From Solwaraspora sp. WMMD1047 (lineage in GTDB: Bacteria; Actinomycetota; Actinomycetes; Mycobacteriales; Micromonosporaceae), in the NCBI RefSeq assembly GCF_029626155.1, contig NZ_JARUBL010000001.1:4878501-4942500 (forward strand): a DNA stretch of 64,000 bases. Reading direction: 5' to 3'. Shown here piece after piece: positions 5,395 to 21,033 of this stretch. How positions within the stretch are numbered: position 1 is the first letter of the stretch; each line of letters starts with the position of its first letter. A program made the position numbers and the translations under genes. The notes below the pieces were generated by a model. It did no database searches. It saw only the letters and a list, made by a program, of their open reading frames with translations, and was not told the origin of the DNA.

Positions 5395-7680
5395 TCAGCG
5401 GACGTAGATGTTCGGCTGCGCCGGGGTGCTCATGCCGTTTCCGATGAAGAAACTCGGATGCGGCGGCTGGTTGTAGGCGGTGTTCTGCCACGCGATCGCC
5501 ACCCGGTACTGCGCATCGTGCAGCAGGGTGTGGATCCGCCGGTCGGTCTGGTGTGGGGTGGCGTAGATCCGCAGCGCCGACGAGTCGCTGGTCCGCCAGA
5601 TCACCTCCTCCCGCCAGTCCCCGAACAGGTCGCCGGAGAGCGCCGGGGTGGCCTTGGTGCCGTTGTTGGCGGCGACCCCGCTGCCGGTGAGCAGCCGGGT
5701 GTCACCGGAGGTGCCGTACTTGTCGATCCTGGTCTGGTCCAGCAGTTCCCGCACCGGATCCCCGTCCCACCAGGCCAGGAAGTTCGCCGACGACGGCTTG
5801 CGGCCGATATTCGACCCGGTCGGGCTGCGCAGTCCGTCCACGGCGTTCGACCAGGACTCGGCGCCCGCGCTGCCGGCGTAGATGTCGCCCGAGACGCCCC
5901 GGCCGTTGTCACCACCGGCGGCGGTGGACCAGATGACCTGCCCGGTCCGGGCGTCGATCATCGCCGACGACGGCTTGGACCCGTCCTCCTGCACCTTGAA
6001 GTACTCCAGCCCGGGCCGGCTCGGGTTCAGATCCCCGACGTGTCCGGCGTCGCCGTGCCCGAGGCCGCTGTTCCACAGCCCGCTGCCGTTGTCGTTGATG
6101 GTGGCCGCGCCGTAGACGATCTCGTCCCGACCGTCGGCGTCCACGTCGGCGATGGAGAGGCTGTGGTTGCCCTGCCCGGCGTAGGAGCCGTTGCCCGAGG
6201 AGTTGGAGTCGAAGACCCAGCGCTGGGTCAGGCTGCCGTTGCGGAAATCCCAGGCGGCGACCACCGCGCGGGTGTAGTAGCCCCGGGCCATGATCAGCGA
6301 CGGCCGCTGGCCGTCCAGGTACGCGGTGCCGGCCAGGAACCGGTCCACCCGGTTGCCGTACGAGTCACCCCAGGACGAGACGTTCCCCCGGGCCGGCACG
6401 TAGTTGACGGTGGAGGCGACCGCGCCGGTCTGGCCGTTGAACATGGTCAGGTACTCGGGGCCGGCGAGCACGTAGCCGGACGAGTTGCGGTGGTCCGCCG
6501 ACGCGGAGCCGATCACCTGCCCGGTGCCCGAGCGGGTGCCGTCGGCGGTCTTCATCGCCACCTCGGCGCGGCCGTCGCCGTCGTAGTCGTACACCTGGAA
6601 CTGGGTGTAGTGCGCCCCGGCCCGGATGTTGCGGCCCAGGTCGATGCGCCACAGCCGGGTGCCGTCGAGCCGGTACGCGTCGACGTAGACGTTGCCGGTG
6701 TAGCCGGACTGGGAGTTGTCCTTGGCGTTGGACGGGTCCCACTTGAGGACGATCTCGTACTGGCCGTCGCCGTCGAGGTCACCGACGGAGGCGTCGTTTG
6801 CCGAGTAGCTGTACGACTCGCCGGACGGCGTCGTCCCGCCGGGCGGTACCTGCAGCCGCACGTCCAGGTAGCCGTTGGTGAACTGCAACGCCGGTCCGGA
6901 AGGGGCCTGCTCGGCGCCGTTCACCACGGCCCGGACCGTGTACGCGGAACCGGCCGCCGCCCCGGAGTCGAGATAGTTGGTGGAGTTGGTGATCGGGGTG
7001 GAGTTGACCCGGGTGCCGCCCCGGTAGACGTTGAAGCCGGTGCCGGCCGCCTCGGTGCCCAGCAGCCGCCAGGAAACCAGGTTGCCCGAGCCGGACCGGA
7101 CACTGATCAGACCCCGGTCCAGGTCCTCCATCTGCTTCGCCCCGGCCGGCGGCGGCCCGGTGGTCGGCGGCGGCGTGGTCGGGGGCGGCGTGGTGGGCGG
7201 TGGGGTGGTGGGTGGCGGCGTGGTGGGCGGCGGGCCGGTGGTCGGCGGCGGGGTCGTCGGGGTCACGCCGCCGGTGCAGGTGGTGCCGTTGACCGCGAAG
7301 CTCGCCGGCACCGGGTTGGAGCCGGTCCACGACCCGTTGAAGCCGAACGAGGTGCTGGCGTTGGTGGCCAGGTTGCCGTTGTAGCTGACGTTCGTGGCGG
7401 TGACGTTGGCGCCGGACTGGGTGACGGTGGCGTTCCACGCCTGGGTGATGGTCTGGCCGGCGCCGTAGGCCCAGGTGACCGACCAGCCGGTGAGCGGGTC
7501 GCCGAGGTTGGTGACGGTGACGTTCGCCCCGAAGCCGCCGGACCACTGGCTGGCGATCTGGTAGTCGACCCGGCAGCCGGCGGCGGCCGAGGCGACGGTG
7601 GCGAAGCAGACGCCGGCGCCGGCGACGAGCACGCTGGTGCCGGCGGCGAGCAGGGCGGTTCGATGTCGCGAGATGCGCAT
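5395..7680 (-). CDS. Secreted rhamnogalacturonan lyase (PL11) with N-terminal CBM2
   Basis: Secreted 761-residue enzyme cleaving the rhamnogalacturonan I backbone of pectin by beta-elimination. Order: Sec signal 1-34 (ends ATVASAAAG); CBM2 cellulose-binding module about 35-138 (CRVDYQIASQWSGGF, NLGDPLTGWSVTW, closing Cys in TTCTG); Pro/Thr/Gly linker about 140-178; PL11 propeller from about 180 to the end. Blades carry repeated calcium-type loops (DLDGDGQYE, DYDGDGRAE, DVDADGRDE). GLISVRSGSGNLVSWR and the end QPNIYVR are typical of YesW-like lyases. The CBM2 would tether it to cellulose in walls. A LacI-type operator lies 144 bases upstream. The substrate call is by family. Confidence 0.9.
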   Translation of the reverse strand: MRISRHRTALLAAGTSVLVAGAGVCFATVASAAAGCRVDYQIASQWSGGFGANVTVTNLGDPLTGWSVTWAYGAGQTITQAWNATVTQSGANVTATNVSYNGNLATNASTSFGFNGSWTGSNPVPASFAVNGTTCTGGVTPTTPPPTTGPPPTTPPPTTPPPTTPPPTTPPPTTGPPPAGAKQMEDLDRGLISVRSGSGNLVSWRLLGTEAAGTGFNVYRGGTRVNSTPITNSTNYLDSGAAAGSAYTVRAVVNGAEQAPSGPALQFTNGYLDVRLQVPPGGTTPSGESYSYSANDASVGDLDGDGQYEIVLKWDPSNAKDNSQSGYTGNVYVDAYRLDGTRLWRIDLGRNIRAGAHYTQFQVYDYDGDGRAEVAMKTADGTRSGTGQVIGSASADHRNSSGYVLAGPEYLTMFNGQTGAVASTVNYVPARGNVSSWGDSYGNRVDRFLAGTAYLDGQRPSLIMARGYYTRAVVAAWDFRNGSLTQRWVFDSNSSGNGSYAGQGNHSLSIADVDADGRDEIVYGAATINDNGSGLWNSGLGHGDAGHVGDLNPSRPGLEYFKVQEDGSKPSSAMIDARTGQVIWSTAAGGDNGRGVSGDIYAGSAGAESWSNAVDGLRSPTGSNIGRKPSSANFLAWWDGDPVRELLDQTRIDKYGTSGDTRLLTGSGVAANNGTKATPALSGDLFGDWREEVIWRTSDSSALRIYATPHQTDRRIHTLLHDAQYRVAIAWQNTAYNQPPHPSFFIGNGMSTPAQPNIYVR

Positions 7681-7858: not shown

Positions 7859-7928
7859 TTCACGATCGTCAGGACATCCGGCACGCCAAACGCGCATCAG
7901 ACGTGCCGAATGTCCTGAGGATCGTGAA
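7859..7928. terminator. 27-bp inverted repeat at the end of the GH42 gene
   Basis: Arms 7859-7885 and 7902-7928 are complementary at 25 of 27 positions, with a 16-base loop. The right arm encodes the last residues of the GH42 protein, whose stop (7897-7899) falls in the loop. Position and strength suggest a terminator for GH42 that also separates it from the PL11 promoter; no T-run follows. Confidence 0.6.
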
Positions 7929-9981
7929 CTCCCCGCTCGGCGGCGGGCGCCGGGGAGGGTTCGCGGAGCACTGCGACGCCGCCGGGCGGGACCAGCACCT
8001 CGCTGACCGGCTGCGGATGAGCCAACTCGCCCGGTCCCCGGTTGGCGTCGATCAACACGGTGCCGGATACCGGCACCCGGTGGGGCCGGTCGGTGTGGTT
8101 GAACAGGAACAGCCAGCTCGTGTCCGGGGTGGAGCGGCGGACGGCCTCCACGCCGTCGGGGGCGGCGGGGCAGGTCGGCTCGATGCCGGCGGTCGCCGCC
8201 ATCGACGTCAGCAGCCAGCGGTAGGCAGCCTCGTCGAGCCGGGTCGAGACGTACCAGGCCGTCCCGGACCCGACCCGGTGCCGGGTGACCGCCGGCTGGC
8301 CGGCGAGCGGGCCTTCGGCGTACCCGATGACGGGCTCGGCCCCGGCGAGCCGGACGGTCTCCGACCAGAACGAGCCGGTCGCGCCCGGGGGTTGCGACGA
8401 CAACGTCAGCGTCTCGCCCTCGGCGAGCGGCCAGAACTCCTCCACCCGGATGCCGAGCAGGTCCCGCAGCGCACCCGGGTAGCCGCCCAGCCGTACCCGG
8501 CCATGCTCGTCGGCGACCCCGCTGAGATAGGTCACGACGAGCTGCCCGCCCGCCGCCACCCACTCCCCCAGCTGCGCGGCGAAGGCGTCGGTGACCAGGT
8601 AACGGGCCGGCAGGACCAGCATCTTCCACCGGGCTAGCGGCTCACCCGGTGACACGAAGTCGGTGCCGATGCCGGCCTGCCACAGCGCCCGGTGCGCGGC
8701 CGACACCTCGGCCAGATAGTCCAGCTCCGCAGGTAGACCCGGCCCCTGCAACGCCCACCAGGACTCGGCATCCCAGCCGATGCCGATCGGCGCGTGCACC
8801 GCACCTTCATCCACCTCGGACAGTTGGTCCAGGGTGGCGCCGAGGGCGACCGCCTCGCGGAAGATCCGGCTGTCCGGGCCGGCGTGCGGCACCAGCGCCG
8901 AGTGGAAACGCTCGGCTCCCCCGCGCGGCGCCCGCCACTGGAAGAACATCGCCCCGCGCGAGCCCCGGGCCACGTGCGCGAGGCTGTGCCGGGCCATCCG
9001 ACCCGGCTCCTTGGTGTGCATCCGGCCGGCGGTGTAGATCAGGTTCGGCGCGCTCTCCATCAGCAGCCAGCCCGGCCCGCCGGGGCTGCGCCGCGCCCAG
9101 GAGCGGGCCAGGTCGGCGGCGAGGGCGGTCTGCTCCTCGGCGCCGATGCCGACCTGCGACGGGTAGTGGTCGATCGCGACCAGGTCCACCTCCGCCGACC
9201 AGCGGGCGTGGTCGACCGGCACCCAACCCCCCAGGACGTAGTTGGTGGTCACCGGCACGTCGGGGGTCACGGTCCGCAGCAGGTCCCGCTGATCGGTGTA
9301 CGCGGCCAGCAGCTCGTCCGAACAGAACCGCCGGAAGTCAAGCTCGTGGCCGGGGTTGGCGAGGTAGCGGGTGGCCCGGGGGGTGCCGATCTGCTCCCAG
9401 TCGCCGTAGTGCTGGCTCCAGAAGCTGGTGTCCCAGGCGTCGTTGAGGGTGGCCAGGTCGCCGTGCCGGTGGCGCAGCCAGCGCCGGAACGCCGCCGCGG
9501 AGTGCGCGCAGTGGCAGGCCGCGCTGTACTCGTTGTGCACGTGCCACAGGGCCAGCGCCGGGTGGTCGCGGTACCGCGTCGCCAGCGCGCCGGCGATCCG
9601 CAGCGCCGCCGACCGGTAGGCCGGAGCGCTCGGGCAGTAGGTGTCGCGGCTGCCGTGGTGCAGTCGTACCCCGTCGGCGGTGACCGGCAGCGCATCCGGG
9701 TGGGCGAGCGAGAACCAGGGCGGCGGGGAGGCGGTCGGGGTGGCCAGCGCGACCCGGACGCCGCCGTCGTGCAGCAGGTCGAGCACCCGGTCCAGCCAGC
9801 CGAAGTCGTAGGCGCCGGCGGCCGGTTCCAGCCGGGACCAGGCGAACACCCCGACGGTGACCAGGTTGACCCGGGCCCGCCGCATCAGCTCGACGTCGTC
9901 GGCCCAGACCGCCTCCGGCCACTGCTCCGGGTTGTAGTCGCCGCCGTAGCAGAGCCGGGTCAACCCGCGGGGCCATCGCAT
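7897..9981 (-). CDS. GH42 beta-galactosidase
   Basis: A 694-residue glycoside hydrolase family 42 enzyme removing terminal beta-galactose. The catalytic barrel starts at once (LCYGGDYNPEQWPEAVW); the acid/base Glu is E151 in WHVHNEY and the nucleophile E309 in LLMESAPN. The trimerisation domain (about 385-590) and a C-terminal beta domain follow. No signal peptide, so it is cytoplasmic and acts on imported oligosaccharides. Start ATG 9981 is supported by a promoter TTGACA-17-TAGGTT whose -10 box ends seven bases before it. An upstream in-frame extension across the divergent GH31 gene is spurious. It shares a regulatory region with GH31 and has the ROK-type motif there. Confidence 0.9.
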   Translation of the reverse strand: MRWPRGLTRLCYGGDYNPEQWPEAVWADDVELMRRARVNLVTVGVFAWSRLEPAAGAYDFGWLDRVLDLLHDGGVRVALATPTASPPPWFSLAHPDALPVTADGVRLHHGSRDTYCPSAPAYRSAALRIAGALATRYRDHPALALWHVHNEYSAACHCAHSAAAFRRWLRHRHGDLATLNDAWDTSFWSQHYGDWEQIGTPRATRYLANPGHELDFRRFCSDELLAAYTDQRDLLRTVTPDVPVTTNYVLGGWVPVDHARWSAEVDLVAIDHYPSQVGIGAEEQTALAADLARSWARRSPGGPGWLLMESAPNLIYTAGRMHTKEPGRMARHSLAHVARGSRGAMFFQWRAPRGGAERFHSALVPHAGPDSRIFREAVALGATLDQLSEVDEGAVHAPIGIGWDAESWWALQGPGLPAELDYLAEVSAAHRALWQAGIGTDFVSPGEPLARWKMLVLPARYLVTDAFAAQLGEWVAAGGQLVVTYLSGVADEHGRVRLGGYPGALRDLLGIRVEEFWPLAEGETLTLSSQPPGATGSFWSETVRLAGAEPVIGYAEGPLAGQPAVTRHRVGSGTAWYVSTRLDEAAYRWLLTSMAATAGIEPTCPAAPDGVEAVRRSTPDTSWLFLFNHTDRPHRVPVSGTVLIDANRGPGELAHPQPVSEVLVPPGGVAVLREPSPAPAAERGVHDPQDIRHV

Positions 9982-9988
9982 CGTGCCG

Positions 9989-10017: not shown

Positions 10018-10033
10018 TCTCGACCGTTGACAG

Positions 10034-10058
10034 TTTGTTGGGTTAGCAAAGAAACTAA
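10034..10058 (-). promoter_or_regulatory. Putative ROK/XylR-type operator, GH42-GH31 region
   Basis: The minus-strand sequence matches 18 of 25 bases of the site at 16280-16304 without gaps. Shared pattern: TTAGTT-n2-T-n-TG-n-T-n-AC-n2-AACAAA. This resembles the TTAGTTTGTTT...AACAAACTAA operators of XylR in Bacillus. It lies between the divergent GH42 and GH31 starts and would control both. Confidence 0.6.
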
Positions 10059-10095
10059 TAGAACGCCGTCGGCGCCCGGGAGCTGAGGAGATCGC

Positions 10096-12444
10096 ATGCC
10101 GTACCGTCCGCCCCTGGTACCGCACGAGACCTTCGTCGCCGACCCGCCGGAGCTTCCGGTGCGCGCCCCCGGCGAGCAGGGCCTCTCCGCGCTGACCCGG
10201 GCCGAGGTGCTGGCCACCGACGAACACGGGGTGACCCTGAAGGCCACCACCTCCGACGGCGGATCGCTCGCGGTGCGGGTCGCGGCCGCGGGCGAGGGCG
10301 TCATCCGGGTACGCCTCAGCGAGGACCCGGTGGCGCGCAGCCGGTCGGCCCGCATCCTGCCGCTGGTGCGGCCGGGCACCCACCCCGCCCAGGTACGCGT
10401 CGACGGCGACCGGGTCCGGATCTCGGCCGGCGCGGTCACCGCCGAGCTGCGGCTGGACCCCTGGCACCTGCGGTTCGTCGACGCCGACGGCGAGTTGCTG
10501 GTCGAGCAGAACCCCGGTGAGCAGGACATCAGCGGCCGGCTGCGGACCCTGCCGTTCGGCCGGTCGCTGGCCGACGGCAGCGTGGCCGCGTACCACGAGA
10601 CCTTCACCGCGCCGGGCGACGAGCGCTTCGTCGGGCTCGGCGAGAAGTTCACCCCGCTGGACAAGCGCGGCCAGCGGGCCCTGATGTGGAACTTCGACGC
10701 CTTCGGCAGCGAGTCCGACCGGTCCCACAAGAGCATCCCGCTGTACCTGTCCAGCCGGGGCTACGGGGTGCTCGTCGACAGCGGGATGCCGGTCGAGTTC
10801 GACATCTGCCAGTCCACCCACAGCTGCGTGCAGATAGTGGTCCCGGACGACCTGCTCGACTACTACCTGATCGCCGGGCCGACCCCCGCCGAGCTCCTGG
10901 ACCGCTACAACGGGCTGACCTGCCGGCCGGAGCTGCCACCGAAGTGGGCCTTCGGGAGCTGGATCTCGTCCGGGTTCTTCATCGACACCCAGGAGCACGT
11001 GCTGGAGCGGGCCCGCAAGATCCGCGAGCGCGGCATCCCCTGCGACGTGCTGCACCTGGACTGCTACTGGCAGGTGGCCGGGGCCTGGTCCGACCTGCGC
11101 TGGGACACCGACAACTTCCCCGACCCGGCCGCGATGATGGCGATCCTCGCCGACCAGGGGTTCAAGGTCAGCCTCTGGATGAACCCGTACCTCAGCCAGG
11201 GCAGCCCGCTGTTCGCCGAGGCGGCCGAGGCCGGCTACTTCCTGCGCCGGGCCAACGGGTCGGCCTACGTCGCCGACGTCTGGCACGGCACCCACCCGGC
11301 CTCCGGGATCGTGGACTTCACCAACCCGGCGGCCAGCGCGTGGTTCACCGGGCTGCTGCGGCCGCTGCTGGCACAGGGCGCCGCCGTGTTCAAGACCGAC
11401 TTCGCCGAGGGGGTGCCGGCGGACGCGGTGGCCTACAACGGGATGACCGGCGTCGAGCTGCACAACGTCTACAGCCTGCTCTTCAACGACGCCGTCTCGG
11501 CGGTCACCCGGGAGGTGGCCGGGCACGGCCTGGTGTGGGCGCGGTCGTCGTACCTGGGCGGGCAGCGGCACTCCGCCCAGTGGAGCGGCGACGTCGCCTC
11601 GACCTGGCCGGCGATGGCGAGCACGCTGCGCGGCGGGCTCTCGCACGGCCTGTCCGGCGTCCCGTTCTGGAGTCACGACACCGGCGGCTTCCACGGCACC
11701 CCGACCCCGGACCTCTACGTCCGCTGGGCGCAGTTCGGTGCCTTCTCGCCGCTGTTCCGGTTCCACGGCACCAGCAGCCGGTTGCCCTGGGACTTCCCGG
11801 CCGAGGCCGAGCGTGACGCCGTCGACGCGGTCCGGCTGCGCTACCGGCTGCTGCCGTACCTCTACTCGGCCGCGGTGGTGGCGGCCCGGACCGGTGCGCC
11901 GATGATGCGGGCCCTGCTGGTGGACACCCCGGAGGACCCGGCGGCCTGGCACGCCGAGCTGGAGTACCTGCTCGGCCCGGACCTGCTGGTGGCCCCGATG
12001 ACCAACCCGGACGGGCGGCGGCACCTCTACCTGCCGGCCGGCGACTGGGTGGACTTCTGGTCCGGCGAGTTGCACACCGGCGGGCGGCACCTGCGGGTGG
12101 TCCAGCCGCTGGACCGGCTGCCGCTCTTCGTCCGGCACGGTGCCCTGCTGCCGACCGCCCCGCTGGCCGACTCGATCGGCGACGGGCCGTTCCCGGAGAT
12201 CACCGTCGTCAGCTACGGCGCCATCACCTCCCGGACCACCATCAGCGACGTCGACGGGGACACGGCGGTGACGGTGATCCGCGACGGCGACACACTGCGG
12301 GTGGAGACCAGCGGTCCGGCCCGGGTCCGGGGGGTGGCCCTGGCCGCGGTGGCCGCCGGGCCGCCGGCGCCGAGGCGGTTGCTGCTCAACGGCGTACCGG
12401 CGGCCTTCGTGCCGGCCGACGGACTACCCGCGGTACGCGATTGA
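10096..12444 (+). CDS. GH31 alpha-xylosidase/alpha-glucosidase
   Basis: A 782-residue family 31 hydrolase without signal peptide, predicted cytoplasmic. N-terminal beta-sandwich about 1-270; (beta/alpha)8 barrel about 270-590 with nucleophile D435 in FKTDFAEG and acid/base D499 in QWSGDVAS; C-terminal beta domains follow. FKTDFAEG resembles the KTDFGE motif of YicI-type alpha-xylosidases more than the DMNE motif common in alpha-glucosidases, which is why xylosidase is favoured. ATG 10096 has GAGGAGA eight bases upstream. Divergent from GH42 with a shared regulatory region, suggesting joint trimming of xylosylated, galactosylated oligosaccharides. Exact specificity is inferred. Confidence 0.88.
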   Translation: MPYRPPLVPHETFVADPPELPVRAPGEQGLSALTRAEVLATDEHGVTLKATTSDGGSLAVRVAAAGEGVIRVRLSEDPVARSRSARILPLVRPGTHPAQVRVDGDRVRISAGAVTAELRLDPWHLRFVDADGELLVEQNPGEQDISGRLRTLPFGRSLADGSVAAYHETFTAPGDERFVGLGEKFTPLDKRGQRALMWNFDAFGSESDRSHKSIPLYLSSRGYGVLVDSGMPVEFDICQSTHSCVQIVVPDDLLDYYLIAGPTPAELLDRYNGLTCRPELPPKWAFGSWISSGFFIDTQEHVLERARKIRERGIPCDVLHLDCYWQVAGAWSDLRWDTDNFPDPAAMMAILADQGFKVSLWMNPYLSQGSPLFAEAAEAGYFLRRANGSAYVADVWHGTHPASGIVDFTNPAASAWFTGLLRPLLAQGAAVFKTDFAEGVPADAVAYNGMTGVELHNVYSLLFNDAVSAVTREVAGHGLVWARSSYLGGQRHSAQWSGDVASTWPAMASTLRGGLSHGLSGVPFWSHDTGGFHGTPTPDLYVRWAQFGAFSPLFRFHGTSSRLPWDFPAEAERDAVDAVRLRYRLLPYLYSAAVVAARTGAPMMRALLVDTPEDPAAWHAELEYLLGPDLLVAPMTNPDGRRHLYLPAGDWVDFWSGELHTGGRHLRVVQPLDRLPLFVRHGALLPTAPLADSIGDGPFPEITVVSYGAITSRTTISDVDGDTAVTVIRDGDTLRVETSGPARVRGVALAAVAAGPPAPRRLLLNGVPAAFVPADGLPAVRD

Positions 12445-12463
12445 TCCTCGCGGGCGGGTGAGC

Positions 12464-12498
12464 GGGGCGGGGTGCCCAGGTGGGGGGCGCCCCGCCCT
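12464..12498. terminator. Hairpin between GH31 and the permease gene
   Basis: Arms 12464-12476 and 12486-12498 pair at 11 of 13 positions (GGGGCGGGGTGCC with a GGCGCCCCGCCC-type partner) around a 9-base loop. It separates convergent genes and touches the stop codon of the permease. Confidence 0.5.
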
Positions 12499-13424
12499 CA
12501 GCCCTTCACGGCTCCGACGATCACGCCCTTGACGAAGTGCCGCTGCACGAACGGGTACACCGCGACGATCGGGGCCACCGTCACCACCACCACCGCCATC
12601 TTGATCGCCAGGGTCGGCGGCAACGAGACGCCGACCCCGGTGCCGGAGGTGTTCGGGCTCTGCCCGGCCAGGATGTAGCTCTGCAGCACCCGCTGGATCG
12701 GGAACTTGGAGTTGTCGTCGATGTAGAGCAGGGCGGTGAACCAGACGTTCCAGTAGCCGACGGCGTAGAAGAGGCCGACCACCGCGATCACCGCCTTCGA
12801 CAGCGGCAGCACGATCCGGGCCAGGATGCGGAACTCGCCCGCCCCGTCGATGCGGGCACTGTCCAGCAGTTCCTGCGGGATGTTCTGGAAGAACGCCCGG
12901 ATCACGATCAGGTTGAAGACGCTCACCGCGGTCGGCAGGATCAGCGCCCAGATGCTGTTCTTCAGGCCCAGCCCGGTGACCACCAGGTAGCTGGGCACCA
13001 GGCCCGGATAGAGCAGGAAGGTGAGCAGGAAGTAGAAGAGCAGCCCCCGGTGCAGCACCGATCCCGGCCGGGACAGCCCGTACGCGGCCAGCACGGTCAG
13101 GGTGAGGCTCACCGCGGTGCCGATCACCGTGATCAGCGTGCTGGTCCAGAGCGCCTGGCTGACCTGCCCGCCCGAGAAGACGGTCACGTACGCCGAGAAG
13201 TCGATCTCCCGGGGGATGACCACCAGTCCGCCGGCCTCGTTGATGGTCTGCCGGTCGGCGAGGCTGGTCACCAGGACCACCCACATCGGAATGAGGACGG
13301 CCAGCACGACCAGGGTGAGCACCAGGCCCTTGGCGGCCTGCCCGGCCGGGCTCGGCGGCTCCTCCCAGGCCGGCCGGCCGGTGGCCGCGCGCCGGTTCTT
13401 GGGCGTCGTTCTGGCGATTGTCAT
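12498..13424 (-). CDS. Carbohydrate ABC transporter permease (YtcP-like)
   Basis: A 308-residue inner-membrane permease of the CUT1 sugar family. Six hydrophobic segments are visible (LVLTLVVLAVLIPMWVVLV near 35-53, LLFYFLLTFLLYPGL near 125-140, AVIAVVGLFYAVGYWNVW near 215-232). The ATPase-contact EAA loop reads ELLDSARIDGAGEFRILARI. The N-terminal 30 residues are charged and Pro-rich. The start ATG 13424 overlaps the stop of the partner permease as ATGA (13421-13424). The preceding binding protein and LplB-like permease are on the same strand. No ATPase gene is near; such importers usually borrow a shared MsiK-type ATPase encoded elsewhere. Confidence 0.87.
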   Translation of the reverse strand: MTIARTTPKNRRAATGRPAWEEPPSPAGQAAKGLVLTLVVLAVLIPMWVVLVTSLADRQTINEAGGLVVIPREIDFSAYVTVFSGGQVSQALWTSTLITVIGTAVSLTLTVLAAYGLSRPGSVLHRGLLFYFLLTFLLYPGLVPSYLVVTGLGLKNSIWALILPTAVSVFNLIVIRAFFQNIPQELLDSARIDGAGEFRILARIVLPLSKAVIAVVGLFYAVGYWNVWFTALLYIDDNSKFPIQRVLQSYILAGQSPNTSGTGVGVSLPPTLAIKMAVVVVTVAPIVAVYPFVQRHFVKGVIVGAVKG

Positions 13425-14494
13425 GTCCGCGAATACACCCCCCGTTCGCCGATCGCGTGGGCGAACTTGTTGGCGGCCAGGATGAGCACCAGCCCGACGG
13501 CGGCCTTGAAGAGGCCGGCCGCGGCGCCGAAGCCGTAGTTGCCGGTGGCGATGGAGTGGTAGTAGACGAAGGTGTCCAGCACCTCGGCGGCCTGCCGGCC
13601 GACCGCGTCGCGCTGCAGCATGAACTGCTCGAAGCCGACCGAGAGCGCGTCGCCGAGCCGCAGGATCAGCAGCAGGATGATCACCGGACGCAGGCTGGGC
13701 AGGGTGACGTGCCAGAGCCGGCGCCACCGACCCGCACCGTCCACGGCCGACGCCTCGTAGAGGTTGGGGTCGATCATCGCGATCGCGGCCAGGAAGACGA
13801 TGGTCCCCCAGCCGATGTCCTTCCAGACCGCCTCGGCGGTGACCAGGACGATGAAGGTGTCCGGGTTGGTCATGATGTTCCACGGTTCCAGCCCGGCGTC
13901 GCGCATCACCTGGGAAAGCAGCCCGGCGCCGCCCAGCATCTGCACGAAGAACGTCACCACGAGCACCCAGCTGAAGAAGTGCGGCAGGTAGACGACGGTC
14001 TGCACGAACCGGCGGAGCTTGCTGGACAGGATGCTGTTCAGCATGATCGCCAGGAGGATCGGCAGCGGGAAGTAGAAGACCAGCTGGAACGCGGTGATGG
14101 AGAGGGTGTTCCAGAGCGCGTCCCAGAACGCCGGGTCGCCGAAGAGCGCCTCGAACTGGCCGAAGCCCACCCATTCGCTGTAAAGGAACGCCTGCAGCGG
14201 GGTCTCCCCGACGTACGGGTTGTAGTCCTGGAAGGCCACCAGGTTGCCCAGCATCGGCAGGTAGTGGAAGACCGCCAGCAGCAGCGCGCCGGGGGCGACC
14301 ATCACCAGCAGCGGCCAGTCGCGGCGTAGTCGGGCCCGCAGCGGCATCCGGGACCGGCGGCGGTCGCGACCCGGTCGCCGGCCGGACCGCTGGCCGGGCC
14401 GGCCGGCCTTCTCGGGTGCGGGCGGTGGACCGCCGGGTGGCCGGGTCCGGTCGTCGCCGGCCCCGGCCACCCGGGTGGTGTCGGTGCTACTCAT
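13421..14494 (-). CDS. Carbohydrate ABC transporter permease (LplB-like)
   Basis: A 357-residue CUT1 permease, partner of the downstream YtcP-like protein. The first 60 residues are a Pro/Arg/Gly-rich cytoplasmic tail; membrane helices start at WPLLVMVAPGALLLAVFHYL. EAA loop: NLYEASAVDGAGRWRRLWHV. FQDYNPYVG and WNTLSITAFQLVFYFPLPILLA are typical of the LplB branch, which carries complex plant or host oligosaccharides. The start ATG 14494 lies 12 bases after the binding-protein stop, so the three genes form one operon. Confidence 0.87.
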   Translation of the reverse strand: MSSTDTTRVAGAGDDRTRPPGGPPPAPEKAGRPGQRSGRRPGRDRRRSRMPLRARLRRDWPLLVMVAPGALLLAVFHYLPMLGNLVAFQDYNPYVGETPLQAFLYSEWVGFGQFEALFGDPAFWDALWNTLSITAFQLVFYFPLPILLAIMLNSILSSKLRRFVQTVVYLPHFFSWVLVVTFFVQMLGGAGLLSQVMRDAGLEPWNIMTNPDTFIVLVTAEAVWKDIGWGTIVFLAAIAMIDPNLYEASAVDGAGRWRRLWHVTLPSLRPVIILLLILRLGDALSVGFEQFMLQRDAVGRQAAEVLDTFVYYHSIATGNYGFGAAAGLFKAAVGLVLILAANKFAHAIGERGVYSRT

Positions 14495-14506
14495 CGATCG
14501 GGCTAC

Positions 14507-16189
14507 TCATCGTCCGGCGTCTTCGAGCGCCTTGGCCAGCAGGGCGCGCGCCTCGTCACCGCCGCCGCTGGTCCGCCACTCGTTGACGATGCCGTCCAGG
14601 TCGGTGAGCGGGCGCCGGCCCCGGAGCAGGTCGGTGATCTTGTCCTCGGTCGGCACCTGGGCCGCCTTGTAGGCGGCCGGCATCTCCAGCTTGATCCCGT
14701 CCCACGGGTCTTTCTCCAGGAACTTCACCGTGGCGTTGGAGTAGCTGAGCATGTCCCGCACGTAGGTCGGCGTCTGCGGGGTGGGCTGCAGCACCGGGCT
14801 GCGGCCGCTGATGAAGAAGTACTGGTTCTGGATCTCCTTGAAGCCCAGGTCGGTCTTTGCCGGCCCGTTGGCGTCGCGGGTGTGGTGCTTGCCCTCCACG
14901 CCGTGCTCGCGCAGGTCGAACTCCTTGGTGCCGAACGGGGCCGAACACCAGTTGATGACCCGCAGCAGCTCGTCGACCCGCTCCTCCGGCAGCCCCTTCC
15001 GGATGAAGGTGAACGAGATCGGCTCGTCGTCGCCCCAGGCCAGCGGGTCCCCGCCGGTGGCGGAGAAGAGCGGCACCGGCTGGATGTTGAACCCGGGCGT
15101 CACCTTCTGCTGCTCGGCCTGCATCGGCTGCCAGACGCCGGGGCCGCCCTGCAGGAAGAGAATCTTGCCGCCGTAGAAGAGGGCGTTGGCGTCGGCGCCC
15201 GTGCTGGCCACCAGGTCGGGGTGGACCAGGCCGGCCTCGTACACCTTGATCATGAATTCCACTGCGGCCCGGTACTCCGGGGTCTCGTACTTGAACTCCG
15301 GGGTGCCGTCCGACTTCAGCCGCCAGCCCTGCTTGGAGGCGGGCACCTTGTGGTACATCTGCACCATCGCGAAGATGTCGTTGAAGGCCCAGACGCCCTT
15401 GGCGGTGTCGGTGACCTCCTTGCCCAGCTCCAGCAGCTGGTCGATGGTGGTCGGCGCGGTCAGCCCGGCGGCGTCGAGCAGGTCCTTGCGCTGGAACATC
15501 ATCCACGGCCACGGACCGTCGGTCGGGTTCGGGATCGCCATCAGCCGCTCGTTCCAGAACGAGTTGCGCCAGGCGCCGGTCGGGAAGGTGGCAAGCATCG
15601 GGTACTTGTTCACCGCGTCGCCCTTGAGCCGGTCCGTGAGGTCCTCGAACAGCGCGGCGACCGCGTCCGAGAACCGGGGGATCTTGTCCACCTCCCAGCC
15701 GGGCACGCAGAGCAGCTCCGGCACGTCGCGGGCGCCGAGGATCGCGTTCAGCTTGTCGGCGTAGTTGTTGCCGTCCTGGACGCTGAAGTTGACCGGCACG
15801 CCCAGTTCGGCGTTTATCGCGTCCAGGTAGGCGCTCTGCCCGAGACCGGGCGGCGCCGGGCCCCAGGCCGGGGTCATCGCGCTGATCTCCTGGCCGCTGG
15901 TGCCGGGCTTCTCGGTGATCGCGTCGAAGAGCTCCGGCGGGAAGCTGGTGTAGCCGTCCGGCACCGGGCGGGTGCTGAGCACGTCCGGCTTCGGAATGGC
16001 CAGGTCGAGATTCTTCTGGTTGGGCACCAGCGCGGAGAGCTTGTCGAGGTCCTGGGTGCTGGTGGTGGAGCCGACCTCCTTGCTGCAACCGCTGAGCAGG
16101 CCACCGCCGGCGACGGCGGCGGCGCCGACCCCGAGCAGGCTGAGGAATCTTCTGCGGTCCGTAGCGGCGCTCGCGAGGGATGGGTCCAC
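14507..16189 (-). CDS. Extracellular oligosaccharide-binding lipoprotein (LipO-like)
   Basis: A 560-residue solute-binding protein, the large LipO type that pairs with LplB/YtcP permeases. The N-terminus has a twin-arginine-like DRRRFLSLLG, a hydrophobic stretch and lipobox LLSGC, so it is a lipid-anchored, probably Tat-exported, receptor. The family pattern includes KLNAILGARDVPELLCVPGW and WPWMMFQRKDLLDAAGL. GTG 16189 is chosen over an ATG 17 codons upstream because AAGGGAG lies six bases before it and the shorter form has a compact signal. It is first in the transporter operon and divergent from the ROK gene, with the shared operator between them. Confidence 0.85.
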   Translation of the reverse strand: MDPSLASAATDRRRFLSLLGVGAAAVAGGGLLSGCSKEVGSTTSTQDLDKLSALVPNQKNLDLAIPKPDVLSTRPVPDGYTSFPPELFDAITEKPGTSGQEISAMTPAWGPAPPGLGQSAYLDAINAELGVPVNFSVQDGNNYADKLNAILGARDVPELLCVPGWEVDKIPRFSDAVAALFEDLTDRLKGDAVNKYPMLATFPTGAWRNSFWNERLMAIPNPTDGPWPWMMFQRKDLLDAAGLTAPTTIDQLLELGKEVTDTAKGVWAFNDIFAMVQMYHKVPASKQGWRLKSDGTPEFKYETPEYRAAVEFMIKVYEAGLVHPDLVASTGADANALFYGGKILFLQGGPGVWQPMQAEQQKVTPGFNIQPVPLFSATGGDPLAWGDDEPISFTFIRKGLPEERVDELLRVINWCSAPFGTKEFDLREHGVEGKHHTRDANGPAKTDLGFKEIQNQYFFISGRSPVLQPTPQTPTYVRDMLSYSNATVKFLEKDPWDGIKLEMPAAYKAAQVPTEDKITDLLRGRRPLTDLDGIVNEWRTSGGGDEARALLAKALEDAGR

Positions 16190-16279
16190 GGCGCGCTCCC
16201 TTCGTATCGGCGAGCGGTCCGGCCGGGCGCGGGCGGCCACTCGATTGAGGGTGTGGGGTGGGGCGATGACACGCTAGAG

Positions 16280-16304
16280 TTAGTTCGTCTGATGACTAAA
16301 CAAA
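16280..16304 (+). promoter_or_regulatory. Putative ROK/XylR-type operator, transporter-regulator region
   Basis: Begins TTAGTT and ends AACAAA; the inner TTAGT...ACTAA arms are visible at 16280-16284 and 16295-16299. Identical at 18 of 25 positions to the GH42-GH31 site. It lies between the divergent binding-protein and ROK starts, as expected for autoregulation plus control of the transporter. Confidence 0.6.
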
Positions 16305-16468
16305 AGTAATCGACGGTGCACGGTGCCACAAGATGGCCCACCGGCGCGGCCAGGTAACGAAGATGGCCCGGATCCCGAAAGGTGCGGCATGATGAGGCAC
16401 ACCACCGCGGGCCGGGCGGCACCGGTCGGGAGAAGAACACGCGGGGAGCGGGACTGACCTTGATCACC

Positions 16469-17809
16469 ATGCCGAGCGGGCCACAGCCCGCCGACCTCGC
16501 CGACGTCCGGGCCACCAACCTCGCCGTCGTGCTCCGCTACGTCCGGGCCAACGCGCCCTGCTCGCGGGCGGACATCGCCGCCGCCACCGGGCTCAACAAG
16601 GCCACCGTCTCCAGCCTGGTCGCCGACCTGATCGAACGCCGGCTGATCCGGGAGACCGGGCTCACCGAGAACCGGATCGGCCGCCCCGCGACCATGCTGG
16701 TGCTCGACGGCCAGCCCTACGCCGCCATCGGGCTGGAGGTCAACGCCGACCAGCTCACCGTGCACGCCGTCGACCTGGCCGGCACCGAACTGCTCTCCTG
16801 GCGGCGGGCCTTCCCCGGGCTCGACGCGCCGCCCGGCCGCGCGGTGAGCACCATCGCCGCCCTGGCCGGCCGGGCGGTCAACCGGGTCGGCGCGCAGGGC
16901 CGGCGGGTGCTCGGGCTGACCGTCGGCGTCCCCGGGCTGGTCGACGGGACCGGGACGGTCCGGCTCGCCACCGGGCTCGGCTGGCGGGACGTGCCACTCG
17001 CCGCCGAGCTGCGGCGCGCGATGCGCGACCCGCAGTTCGAGGTGGCGGTGGAGAACGACGCCAACCTCGCCGCCCTGGCCGAACACCGGCAGGGCCCGTA
17101 CGCCGGCACCGACAACCTGGTGCACCTGACCGGCGGCGCGGGCATCGGCGCCGGGGTGGTGGCCGACGGTCGGCTGCTGCGCGGCGGCCGCGGCTTCGCC
17201 GGCGAACTCGGTCACGTGCCGCTCGACCCCGCCGGCCCGCCCTGCCCCTGCGGCCGGCGCGGCTGCCTGGAGGCGGTGGCCGGCATCCCCGCCCTGGTGC
17301 GGCGGGTCCTCCCGGACACCGCCGAGGACGGTCCGCTCACCGACTTCGCCCCGGAGGTGGAACGCATCCGGGGCAGCGCCCGGCAGGGCGACCGGGCCAC
17401 CCTGACCGCGCTCGACGAGGTCGGCCGGCAGCTCGGGTACGCCGCCTCCCTGCTGGTCAACCTGGTCAACCCCGAGGTGGTGCTGCTCGGCGGCTACTTC
17501 GTGGACCTGGCGCCGTGGCTGCTGCCGGCCGCCGAGGCGGAGCTGGCCGCCCGGGCGATCGCCCCGGAGGCCGGCGGCTGCCGGCTGGTCGCCTCCACCC
17601 TCGGCCCGGGGGCCGCCGCCGCGGGCGGCGCCGCCCGCACCCTCGCTTTGGTCGACGCGGGCCGGTTGCCGCCCGTCGGATCGGCTCCCACCACCCCGGC
17701 CCGGCCGGCCGAGCCAACCGGCGTCTCCGGGACCGGGCCGGCGACCGCCGTGACCGGTCCGACCCCCGCCACCCCCGCCACCCCCGCCACCGCGGTCGCC
17801 GCCGGCTGA
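16469..17809 (+). CDS. ROK-family transcriptional repressor (XylR/NagC-like)
   Basis: A 446-residue sugar-responsive repressor. Winged helix at about 15-75 (CSRADIAAATGLNKATVSSLVADLIERRLIRE region), then an actin-like ROK fold: AIGLEVNADQLTVHAVDLAG, VENDANLAALAEH, LTGGAGIGAGVVADG and the zinc-binding GPPCPCGRRGCLEAV. The C-terminal 40 residues are a Pro/Ala/Thr tail that homologues generally lack. ATG 16469 is chosen; TTG 16460, three codons upstream, is closer to GGGGAG and may be the real start. Ligand unknown; xylose or glucose fits the GH31/GH42 context. It faces the transporter operon across a shared operator. Confidence 0.87.
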   Translation: MPSGPQPADLADVRATNLAVVLRYVRANAPCSRADIAAATGLNKATVSSLVADLIERRLIRETGLTENRIGRPATMLVLDGQPYAAIGLEVNADQLTVHAVDLAGTELLSWRRAFPGLDAPPGRAVSTIAALAGRAVNRVGAQGRRVLGLTVGVPGLVDGTGTVRLATGLGWRDVPLAAELRRAMRDPQFEVAVENDANLAALAEHRQGPYAGTDNLVHLTGGAGIGAGVVADGRLLRGGRGFAGELGHVPLDPAGPPCPCGRRGCLEAVAGIPALVRRVLPDTAEDGPLTDFAPEVERIRGSARQGDRATLTALDEVGRQLGYAASLLVNLVNPEVVLLGGYFVDLAPWLLPAAEAELAARAIAPEAGGCRLVASTLGPGAAAAGGAARTLALVDAGRLPPVGSAPTTPARPAEPTGVSGTGPATAVTGPTPATPATPATAVAAG

Positions 17810-18105: not shown

Positions 18106-21033
18106 ATGAGCGACAGCACCTTCCGCGACCCCGACCTACCGCTGGACGACCGCGTCACCGACCTGCTGGGTCGGCTCACCCTCGACGAGAAGGTCGCGCT
18201 GCTGCACCAGCACCAGGCCCCGGTCCCCCGGCTCGGCGTACCCGCGTTCCGCACCGGCACGGAGGCGCTGCACGGCATGGCGTGGCTCGGCCCCGCCACC
18301 GTCTTCCCGCAGGCCGTGGGGCTCGCCGCGAGCTGGAACCCCGAGCTGATCCGGGCGGTCGGCTCGGCGGTCGGCGACGAGGTGCGCGGCCTGCACCACA
18401 AGGACCCGACCCGGGCCGGGCTGAACGTCTGGGCACCGGTGGTCAACCCGCTGCGCGACCCGCGCTGGGGCCGCAACGAGGAGGGCTACTCGGAGGACCC
18501 CTGGCTGACCGGCGTACTCGGCACCGCGTACGCCGCCGGCCTGCGCGGCGACCACCCCCGCTACCTGCGGACCGCCCCCACCCTGAAGCACTTCCTCGGC
18601 TACAACAACGAGACCGACCGCTGCCTGACCTCCAGCAACCTGCCACCCCGGGTGCTGCACGAGTACGAGCTACCCGCCTTCCGCGCCCCCCTCGCCGCCG
18701 GCGCGGCGGTCGCCGTGATGGCCTCCTACAACCTCGTCAACGGCCGGCCCGCGCACCTGAGCCCGCTCATCGACACCGAGCTGCGCGGGTACGCCGACCA
18801 GGAGATCATGGTGGTCGGCGACGCCGCCGCGGTCTCCAACATCGCCGGCGCCCAGGGCTTCCACGCCGACCACCCCAGCGGCTACGCCGCCGCGCTGCGC
18901 GCCGGCATCGACAACTTCACCGAGGACGACGCCGACTCCCGGCCGACCATCGACCGGATCACCGAGGCGCTGCGGCGCGGCCTGCTCGACGAAGCGGACG
19001 TGGACCGCGCGGTCCGGCGCATCCTGCACGTCCGGTTCCGGCTCGGCGAGTTCGACCCGCCAGCGGCCAACCCGTACGCCGCCGTCACCGCCGACGTCAT
19101 CAACTGCCCGGCGCACCAGGACCTGGCCCGGGAGGCCGCCCGGCAGTCCGTCGTGCTGCTGCGCAACGACGGGCTGCTCCCGCTGACCGCCGGCGGCACC
19201 CGGGTCGCGGTGCTCGGCCCGCTCGCCGACACCGTCCACCAGGACTGGTACAGCGGCACCCCGCCGTACACCGTCTCCGCCCTCGACGGGCTGACCGCCC
19301 GGTTCGGCGCCGACGCGGTCGTCCACCACCCCGGCGTGGACCGGATCGCGCTGCGCCCGTACGGCGCGGCCGGCGCGCCGGTGCGGGCCGGCGACGGACC
19401 GGCCGGCGCCCCGCTCACCACCGCCCCCGCCGGGTCCCCCGGATCGGCCGAGGCCGGCGCCCGGACCTGGTTCGACGTCTTCGAGTGGGGACCAGGCGTC
19501 GTCGCGCTGCGCAGCGTCGCCAACGGCCGGCACGTCGGCGTCGACGCCCGCGGGCTGCTCGTCAACGACCGGCCCGGTCCCGGCGAGTGGGTGGTCCGGG
19601 AGACGTTCCGACTGGTCGACCGGCCGGCCGGCGGGACCGCCCTGCACCACCTGGCCAGCGACCGCTACGTGCTCGTCGGCCCGGACGGTGAACTGCGGGC
19701 CGAAGCGACCGGCCTCGCCGAGGCGACCGGCTTCGTCATCGACGTGGTCGTTGACGGCGCCCGGGCGGCGGCCGCCGCGGCCCGGGCGGCCGATGTCGCG
19801 GTCGTCGTGCTGGGCAACCACCCGATGGTCTGCGGCCGGGAGACCGAGGACCGCACCGGCCTGGCGCTGCCGCCCGCCCAGGAGGCGCTGCTGCACGCCG
19901 TCCACACCGCCAACCCGCGGACCGTCCTGGTGCTGTCCAGCAGCTACCCGTACGCGGTCGGCTGGGCCGACGACCACCTGCCGGCGGTGCTCTGGTCGGC
20001 GCACGGCGGCCAGGAGTACGGCCACGCGTTGGCGGCCGTGCTGGCCGGCGACGCCGACCCCGGCGGCCGGCTCACCCAGACCTGGTACCGGGACGCCACC
20101 GAGCTGCCCGACCTGCTCGACTACGACATCATCGCCACCGACGCCACCTACCTGTACTACCGGGGCGCGCCGCTCTACCCGTTCGGGCACGGCCTGAGCT
20201 ACACCACCTTCGCCTACTCCGAGCTGCGGCTGGGCGCCGGGCAGGTGGACGCCGACGGGGAGGTCGAGGTCTCGGTGCGGGTGACGAACACCGGCCCCCG
20301 GGCCGGCGAGGAGGTGGTGCAGCTCTACACCCGGCAACGCCGGTCCCGGGTCAAGCAGCCGCTGCGTCAGCTGCGCGGCTTCGCCCGGGTGGCCCTCGAC
20401 GCCGGGGCGTCCACCACGGTCCGGTTCCGGCTGCGCGCCGCCGACCTGGCGTACTGGGACGTCACCCGGGGCCGGTACGTGGTGGAGCGCGCCCGGCACA
20501 CGGTGGCGGTCGGCCGCTCCTGCGCCGACCTGGCGCTGTCCGCGCCGCTGTCGGTGCGCGGCGAGCCGGTGGCGCACCGCGCACCGCTGGCCGGTCCGCT
20601 GCGGGCCACCGACCACGACGAGTACGCCGGCACGGTCCCGCTGCCCGACGACAACGGCGGCGGGGCGGTCACCGCCTGGGAGCCGGGCGGCTGGCTGCGG
20701 TTCTCCGGGGTGGACTTCGGCGCCGGGGTCGGCGGCGTGACCGCGCGGGTGGCCGGACGGTCCGGCGCGGGCGGGACCGGCACCCTGACCCTGCGGCTGG
20801 ACGACCCGGTGGCCGGGCCGGTGGCCGGGACGGTACCGGTGCCGGCCGGCGGTGGTGACCGGCTGGCCTGGCGGGAGGTGGCCGGCCGCTGGCTCGGCGG
20901 GGTGACCGGAGTACGAGACCTGTACCTGCTCTTCGACGCGCCGGGCGCTACGGTGAGTTGGCTCGCCTTCGACGCCGAGGCGCGGGCCGATGCGGACGGC
21001 GACCGGTCCGCGGCTGGGAGTGGAGGGTCCTAG
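18106..21033 (+). CDS. GH3 beta-glycosidase with inserted lectin-like domain and C-terminal CBM6
   Basis: A 975-residue family 3 enzyme (beta-glucosidase or beta-xylosidase) without signal peptide. N-terminal barrel about 1-300 (KVALLHQHQAPVPRLGVPAF, NPLRDPRWGRNEEGYSEDP, LKHFLGYNNE); the likely nucleophile is D239 in MVVGDAAAVSN, where most relatives have SDW. The alpha/beta sandwich is interrupted at about 455-550 by a beta-rich insert (VVALRSVANGRHVGVDARGL...) resembling fascin/RICIN-like folds. A fibronectin-III-like domain (about 710-800) and a CBM6-like module (about 840-965) follow. ATG 18106 has AAAGGTG upstream. The stop overlaps the LacI start (TAGTG). Twin operators precede it. Confidence 0.87.
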   Translation: MSDSTFRDPDLPLDDRVTDLLGRLTLDEKVALLHQHQAPVPRLGVPAFRTGTEALHGMAWLGPATVFPQAVGLAASWNPELIRAVGSAVGDEVRGLHHKDPTRAGLNVWAPVVNPLRDPRWGRNEEGYSEDPWLTGVLGTAYAAGLRGDHPRYLRTAPTLKHFLGYNNETDRCLTSSNLPPRVLHEYELPAFRAPLAAGAAVAVMASYNLVNGRPAHLSPLIDTELRGYADQEIMVVGDAAAVSNIAGAQGFHADHPSGYAAALRAGIDNFTEDDADSRPTIDRITEALRRGLLDEADVDRAVRRILHVRFRLGEFDPPAANPYAAVTADVINCPAHQDLAREAARQSVVLLRNDGLLPLTAGGTRVAVLGPLADTVHQDWYSGTPPYTVSALDGLTARFGADAVVHHPGVDRIALRPYGAAGAPVRAGDGPAGAPLTTAPAGSPGSAEAGARTWFDVFEWGPGVVALRSVANGRHVGVDARGLLVNDRPGPGEWVVRETFRLVDRPAGGTALHHLASDRYVLVGPDGELRAEATGLAEATGFVIDVVVDGARAAAAAARAADVAVVVLGNHPMVCGRETEDRTGLALPPAQEALLHAVHTANPRTVLVLSSSYPYAVGWADDHLPAVLWSAHGGQEYGHALAAVLAGDADPGGRLTQTWYRDATELPDLLDYDIIATDATYLYYRGAPLYPFGHGLSYTTFAYSELRLGAGQVDADGEVEVSVRVTNTGPRAGEEVVQLYTRQRRSRVKQPLRQLRGFARVALDAGASTTVRFRLRAADLAYWDVTRGRYVVERARHTVAVGRSCADLALSAPLSVRGEPVAHRAPLAGPLRATDHDEYAGTVPLPDDNGGGAVTAWEPGGWLRFSGVDFGAGVGGVTARVAGRSGAGGTGTLTLRLDDPVAGPVAGTVPVPAGGGDRLAWREVAGRWLGGVTGVRDLYLLFDAPGATVSWLAFDAEARADADGDRSAAGSGGS

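Follow-up and report, generated by a model that had tools for sequence, protein, structure and literature searches.

The locus lies in a 64,000-nucleotide stretch of the Solwaraspora sp. WMMD1047 genome (the window), in which the gene order is GH42 (minus strand), GH31 (plus), permease C (minus), permease B (minus), solute-binding protein (SBP; minus), ROK (plus), and GH3 (plus). We assigned the GH42 gene (7897 to 9984, minus strand) to a beta-galactosidase-like enzyme by sequence and profile match, and the GH31 gene (10096 to 12444, plus strand) to a YicI-type alpha-xylosidase homologue by profile matches and alignment to YicI. E. coli YicI was the closest relative of the GH31 protein, and the YicI active-site segments DC[FY]W, KTDF, and GD are kept in the aligned HLDCYW, FKTDF, and WSGD; the NCBIfam alpha-xylosidase model NF007940 scored 582.3 bits, just below its cut-off of 606, but was nonetheless the best match. 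On the minus strand, the ABC transporter genes encode permease C (12498 to 13424) and permease B (13421 to 14494), both identified by profile match, and a solute-binding lipoprotein (14507 to 16189), identified by profile match and structure comparison. The nearest solved structures to the SBP, which bind maltose and sulfoquinovosyl-glycerol, were too distant and were rejected as a guide to its substrate. On the other side of the locus, a gene for a family-11 rhamnogalacturonan lyase with a CBM2 domain (5395 to 7680, minus strand) adjoins GH42, placing the locus in a wider plant cell-wall region.

The ROK-family repressor gene (16460 to 17809, plus strand, with a start codon at 16460 or 16469) encodes an N-terminal winged helix-turn-helix and a ROK domain, with a PF00480 score of 155 bits, N-terminal MarR_2 and HTH_IclR-type matches, and a full-length alignment to the ROK regulator 1z05. 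By inspection rather than by profile, the zinc/sugar-site signature is present as GELGH and CPCGRRGCLE, and the kinase ATP signature is absent, with GLEVNADQL in place of the DxGGT-type motif. Downstream of ROK and without an operator of its own lies the gene for a GH3 glycosidase with a C-terminal CBM6-like domain (18106 to 21033, plus strand). ROK and GH3 are co-directional neighbors, and because the distance between them is 9 to 500 bp at most loci, the two may share a transcript. No obvious signal peptide was seen on reading the GH31, GH42, and GH3 sequences, and thus hydrolysis by the three glycosidases is probably intracellular.

The paired motif and its overlap with putative promoters

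A sequence-only reading of this DNA had reported two related 25-mers, at 10034 to 10058 on the minus strand and at 16280 to 16304 on the plus strand, and we confirmed that they are identical at 18 of 25 positions. The pattern common to both occurs twice in the window compared to 0 occurrences expected from dinucleotide shuffles, and its only two exact sites in the whole 8.16-Mb genome are at this locus; a reversed-pattern control over the same genome gave 0 matches. Since the pattern was derived from the two sites themselves, we separately shuffled the two intergenic regions and found that pairs sharing a 25-mer at 18 or more of 25 positions arose with a P of 0.04 (2,000 dinucleotide shuffles). 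Because such a match appears in about 4% of shuffles, the pair from this one genome is only suggestive, and it is the comparison with relatives that settles its standing as a candidate operator pair.

The full unit is a 29-bp imperfect dyad, TTAGTTyGTyT-N7-AAACAAAcTAA, of which the 25-mers are truncated copies. A scan of dyad centers placed the best center at the middle of the 29-mer (0.566, versus a mean of 0.246 with a standard deviation of 0.08), and we dropped the originally proposed 25-bp unit for this dyad. Operator A (10030 to 10058, minus strand; TTAGTTTCTTTGCTAACCCAACAAACTGT) lies in the GH42/GH31 intergenic region and operator B (16280 to 16308, plus strand; TTAGTTCGTCTGATGACTAAACAAAAGTA) between the transporter and ROK genes; A and B are unlike at 7 of the 25 positions, and A has the lower score. 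When the whole genome was searched with a model built from relatives, scoring 150 of 432 first-look candidates, A and B were the only sites at an E value of ≤10. A wide regulon was rejected, given no third genomic site at this threshold and few off-locus matches in relatives, and the loci of the ROK paralogues checked in this genome had no matching site.

Both dyads overlap putative promoter elements. The putative GH31 promoter (10027 to 10056, plus strand), in which TTGACA (10027 to 10032) and GAAACT (10051 to 10056) are 18 bp apart, is conserved in relatives and is overlapped by operator A. In five relatives (L038, L042, L046, L055, and L163), the GH31 start codon is only ∼6 to 8 nucleotides past GAAACT, which supports this hexamer as the −10 element and suggests that the GH31 transcript is leaderless in those genomes. 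The putative transporter promoter (16303 to 16331, minus strand) pairs TTGTGG (16326 to 16331) at 17 bp with TACTTT (16303 to 16308), a −10 element inside operator B. The same arrangement, TTGTGG-17 (or 18)-TAnTTT with the −10 element in the right arm of operator B, was found at nearly all SBP/ROK sites. Toward ROK, a candidate −10 element, TAGAGT (16275 to 16280, plus strand), abuts the left arm of operator B, and no conserved −35 element was found to accompany this TAgAGT-like sequence. One dimer bound at B could block transcription in both directions.

Distribution of the dyad in related genomes

The check that had been proposed for the motif, a scan of related genomes beside GH31 and ROK genes, came out in its favor: the 29-bp dyad recurs upstream of both the transporter/ROK pair and GH31/GH42 across Micromonosporaceae, and the same site is present between SBP and ROK in one Streptosporangiaceae genome (Thermocatellispora, L122). 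Of 40 related loci compared, most have this gene set, with mostly high synteny, and the consensus upstream of ROK across relatives is TTAGTTcGTCTggtGACTAAACAAAcTAg, again a 29-bp imperfect dyad. We trained a matrix on the ROK-side (SBP/ROK) sites only. At a score of at least 20, it found these training sites upstream of SBP in 37 of 39 cases and upstream of ROK in 33 of 41, counts that are partly circular. The GH31/GH42-side sites were outside the training set and so provide an independent test, in which scores of at least 15 were found upstream of GH31 (19 of 22) and GH42 (16 of 22). No upstream region of permease B (0/33), permease C (0/38), or GH3 (0/37) reached 15, and the maximum score in 1.68 Mb of reversed-sequence controls was 16.9.

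A model built from the sequences of 37 sites found mostly two sites per relative, nearly all of them at this locus, and no site at an E value of ≤0.1 in 20 relatives without a ROK orthologue. In a held-out set of 40 genomes that were outside the model and had been picked for having a site, the site was 30 to 260 bp upstream of the ROK orthologue in 36 (distances read from tables). The exceptions were G141, in which no orthologue was found, G164 and G183, in which the site is ∼15 kb away, and G231 (of the same genus as G003), in which it is on a different contig. In a few orthologue-bearing genomes (G044 and G061), the ROK gene had no site. Members of the ROK clade have a nearly invariant recognition helix, LNKATVSSLV, and L067, which has LTKATV, contains neither the site nor the locus. 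Second ROK-clade copies are present in L062 and L063, where they have the same orientation as the adjacent transporter and the standard site is missing from the intervening DNA; in L062, weak variants of the site are present further upstream. These copies are possibly subfunctionalized duplicates.

Natural REARRANGEMENTS were found in G003, G036, and three members of genus g11. The transporter operon of G003 (L162:3881-7552) has moved to a position ∼390 kb from ROK, GH42, and GH3, and a strong site is kept 56 bp upstream of SBP. In G036, GH31 and GH42 are separated by 2.4 kb and have one site each, while in the three g11 genomes (L035, L036, and L037), no GH31 was found in the locus and the GH42-upstream site remains. 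The sites go with their target genes, as expected for operators of a diffusible repressor. The operator retained in L035 to L037 is of the GH31/GH42 type and includes a TTGACA that would face the missing GH31.

A proposed ROK regulon and its relation to XylR

The observed sites, their conservation, their co-occurrence with ROK, their retention after rearrangement, and their overlap with promoters lead us to conclude that the two motifs are very probably operators of the ROK protein encoded at 16460 to 17809, which would bind them in a local, autoregulated regulon. The binding, repression, ligand release, and substrate in this model are deduced from sequence. A ROK dimer without ligand would bind both 29-bp dyads. 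On operator B, it would cover the transporter promoter at its −10 element and start region, and it would abut the candidate ROK promoter; on operator A, it would fill the −35/−10 spacer of the GH31 promoter, between GH31 and the divergent GH42. A sugar freed from imported oligosaccharides is predicted to bind the ROK domain and release the DNA, and this release would induce import through the SBP and two permeases together with hydrolysis inside the cell by GH31, GH42, and GH3, with GH3 probably induced through co-transcription with ROK.

Judged by the enzyme families, the substrate is probably xylose-containing oligosaccharides, plausibly from xyloglucan, our best guess if an alpha-xylosidase, a beta-galactosidase, and a GH3 enzyme work together on an oligosaccharide after its import; other oligosaccharides that contain xylose or galactose are conceivable. 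For this plant-polysaccharide uptake locus, which is conserved across Micromonosporaceae, the model would name an operator, a regulator, and a regulon in concrete terms, and it possibly provides a tight sugar-inducible promoter for actinomycetes.

The sequence-only reading had tied GH42/GH31 to the transporter and ROK genes and likened the motif to XylR operators. The tie is borne out by co-occurrence, by conservation, and by the movement of sites with genes, and the half-site resemblance is real, but we found a spacing of N13 here compared to N9 in Bacillus and no support for equating this ROK protein with XylR. Still, the sites could be XylR operators with xylose as the inducer, either because the locus ROK is the xylose repressor or because the XylR of this genome acts there; we consider this unlikely. 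In its favor, the half-sites agree with those of the Bacillus xyl operator, TTAGTTTGTTTGGGCAACAAACTAA, which has N9 spacing (PMC12034463). Bacillus subtilis XylR is also a ROK repressor, with a near-identical half-site (TTAGTTTGTT/AACAAACTAA) and sites beside the regulator and target genes (PMC12034463, PMC2873477). However, its operator is a 25-bp dyad, TTAGTT-N9-AACAAA, and it controls xylA and xylB, genes that are not at the locus described here.

In this genome, xylA maps to G000:C1:1360276 and is next to a different ROK gene (G000:C1:1358960-1360150), so the xylA/xylB linkage typical of XylR is absent from our locus. The ROK protein encoded divergently from xylA is likely the XylR of this genome; it is 43% identical to the locus ROK and is its closest paralogue in the genome. 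Another operator, typically CAAATAATTCAACCGnTAAACAAAT and located downstream of TTGACA, is common to the xylR-xylA region of this genome and those at sixteen relatives' loci. The copy in this genome (L089:4706-4740, or G000:C1 about 1360205-1360240) belongs, with those in L099 to L118, to a set conserved in Micromonosporaceae. In a common register, this operator is TTAGTT-like-N9-AACAAA (ATAATT-N9-AACAAA in our genome), whereas sites A and B are TTAGTT-N13-AACAAA in a 29-bp dyad rather than a 25-bp unit with N9. Because xylA has a divergent ROK gene of its own, with an operator whose spacing is 4 bp shorter, we rejected the locus ROK as XylR. The recognition helices also differ (LNKATVSS in the locus ROK versus LTRATVSA/T in XylR, with LTRATVSA in this genome), and the relatives-based model found no site in the xylA region. 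Both operator types contain AAACAAA, and in a tree, XylR is sister to the locus ROK clade on a long branch; cross-binding by XylR through the shared half-site is conceivable.

By these comparisons, the locus ROK is a paralogue of XylR with related predicted half-sites and wider spacing, which corrects a likely misnaming as XylR. A literature search returned no description of the locus or regulator in the papers covered. We tentatively suggest, as a possibility somewhat short of even, that this ROK protein is a regulator, so far undescribed, through which Micromonosporaceae control their use of xyloglucan oligosaccharides, and that it is separated from XylR within one cell mainly by the 4-bp difference in how far apart the near-identical half-sites lie. 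Paralogous ROK repressors with similar half-sites would offer a clean test case for possible discrimination by spacing.

It is considerably less probable that the motif represents a promoter element common to both regions, or a chance AT-rich match in GC-rich DNA, and no operator. The P of about 0.04 for the 18/25 match taken alone would fit such a reading, as would the overlap of the dyads with −35 and −10 elements, which contributes TTGACA- and TAnTTT-like letters. Against it, conserved letters run through both dyad arms and past the promoter hexamers, the best dyad center is that of the 29-mer, and the sites are confined to this locus and to orthologue-bearing genomes. Least probable of all is that another regulator encoded elsewhere, for example of the AraC or LacI type, binds the dyads and that the ROK gene is a co-controlled neighbor; the identity of the regulator is deduced, but site presence or absence tracks the locus ROK and the half-sites resemble those of the studied ROK regulators XylR (PMC12034463) and RokB (TTTGTTC-11-GAACAAA; PMC4856308).

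Two actinobacterial systems can be compared with the proposed ROK operators. Streptomyces coelicolor RokB belongs to the ROK regulators and has TTTGTT/AACAAA as its inverted repeat, but its spacing is wider, it has a proposed role in amino acid metabolism, and no glycosidase/transporter locus is involved (PMC4856308). Mycobacterium smegmatis XylR differs in controlling a xylose metabolism cluster and in its half-site letters, but it is likewise an actinobacterial ROK-type protein with autoregulation and a footprinted dyad, TTATGTTC-N7-GAACAAAA (PMC10138657).
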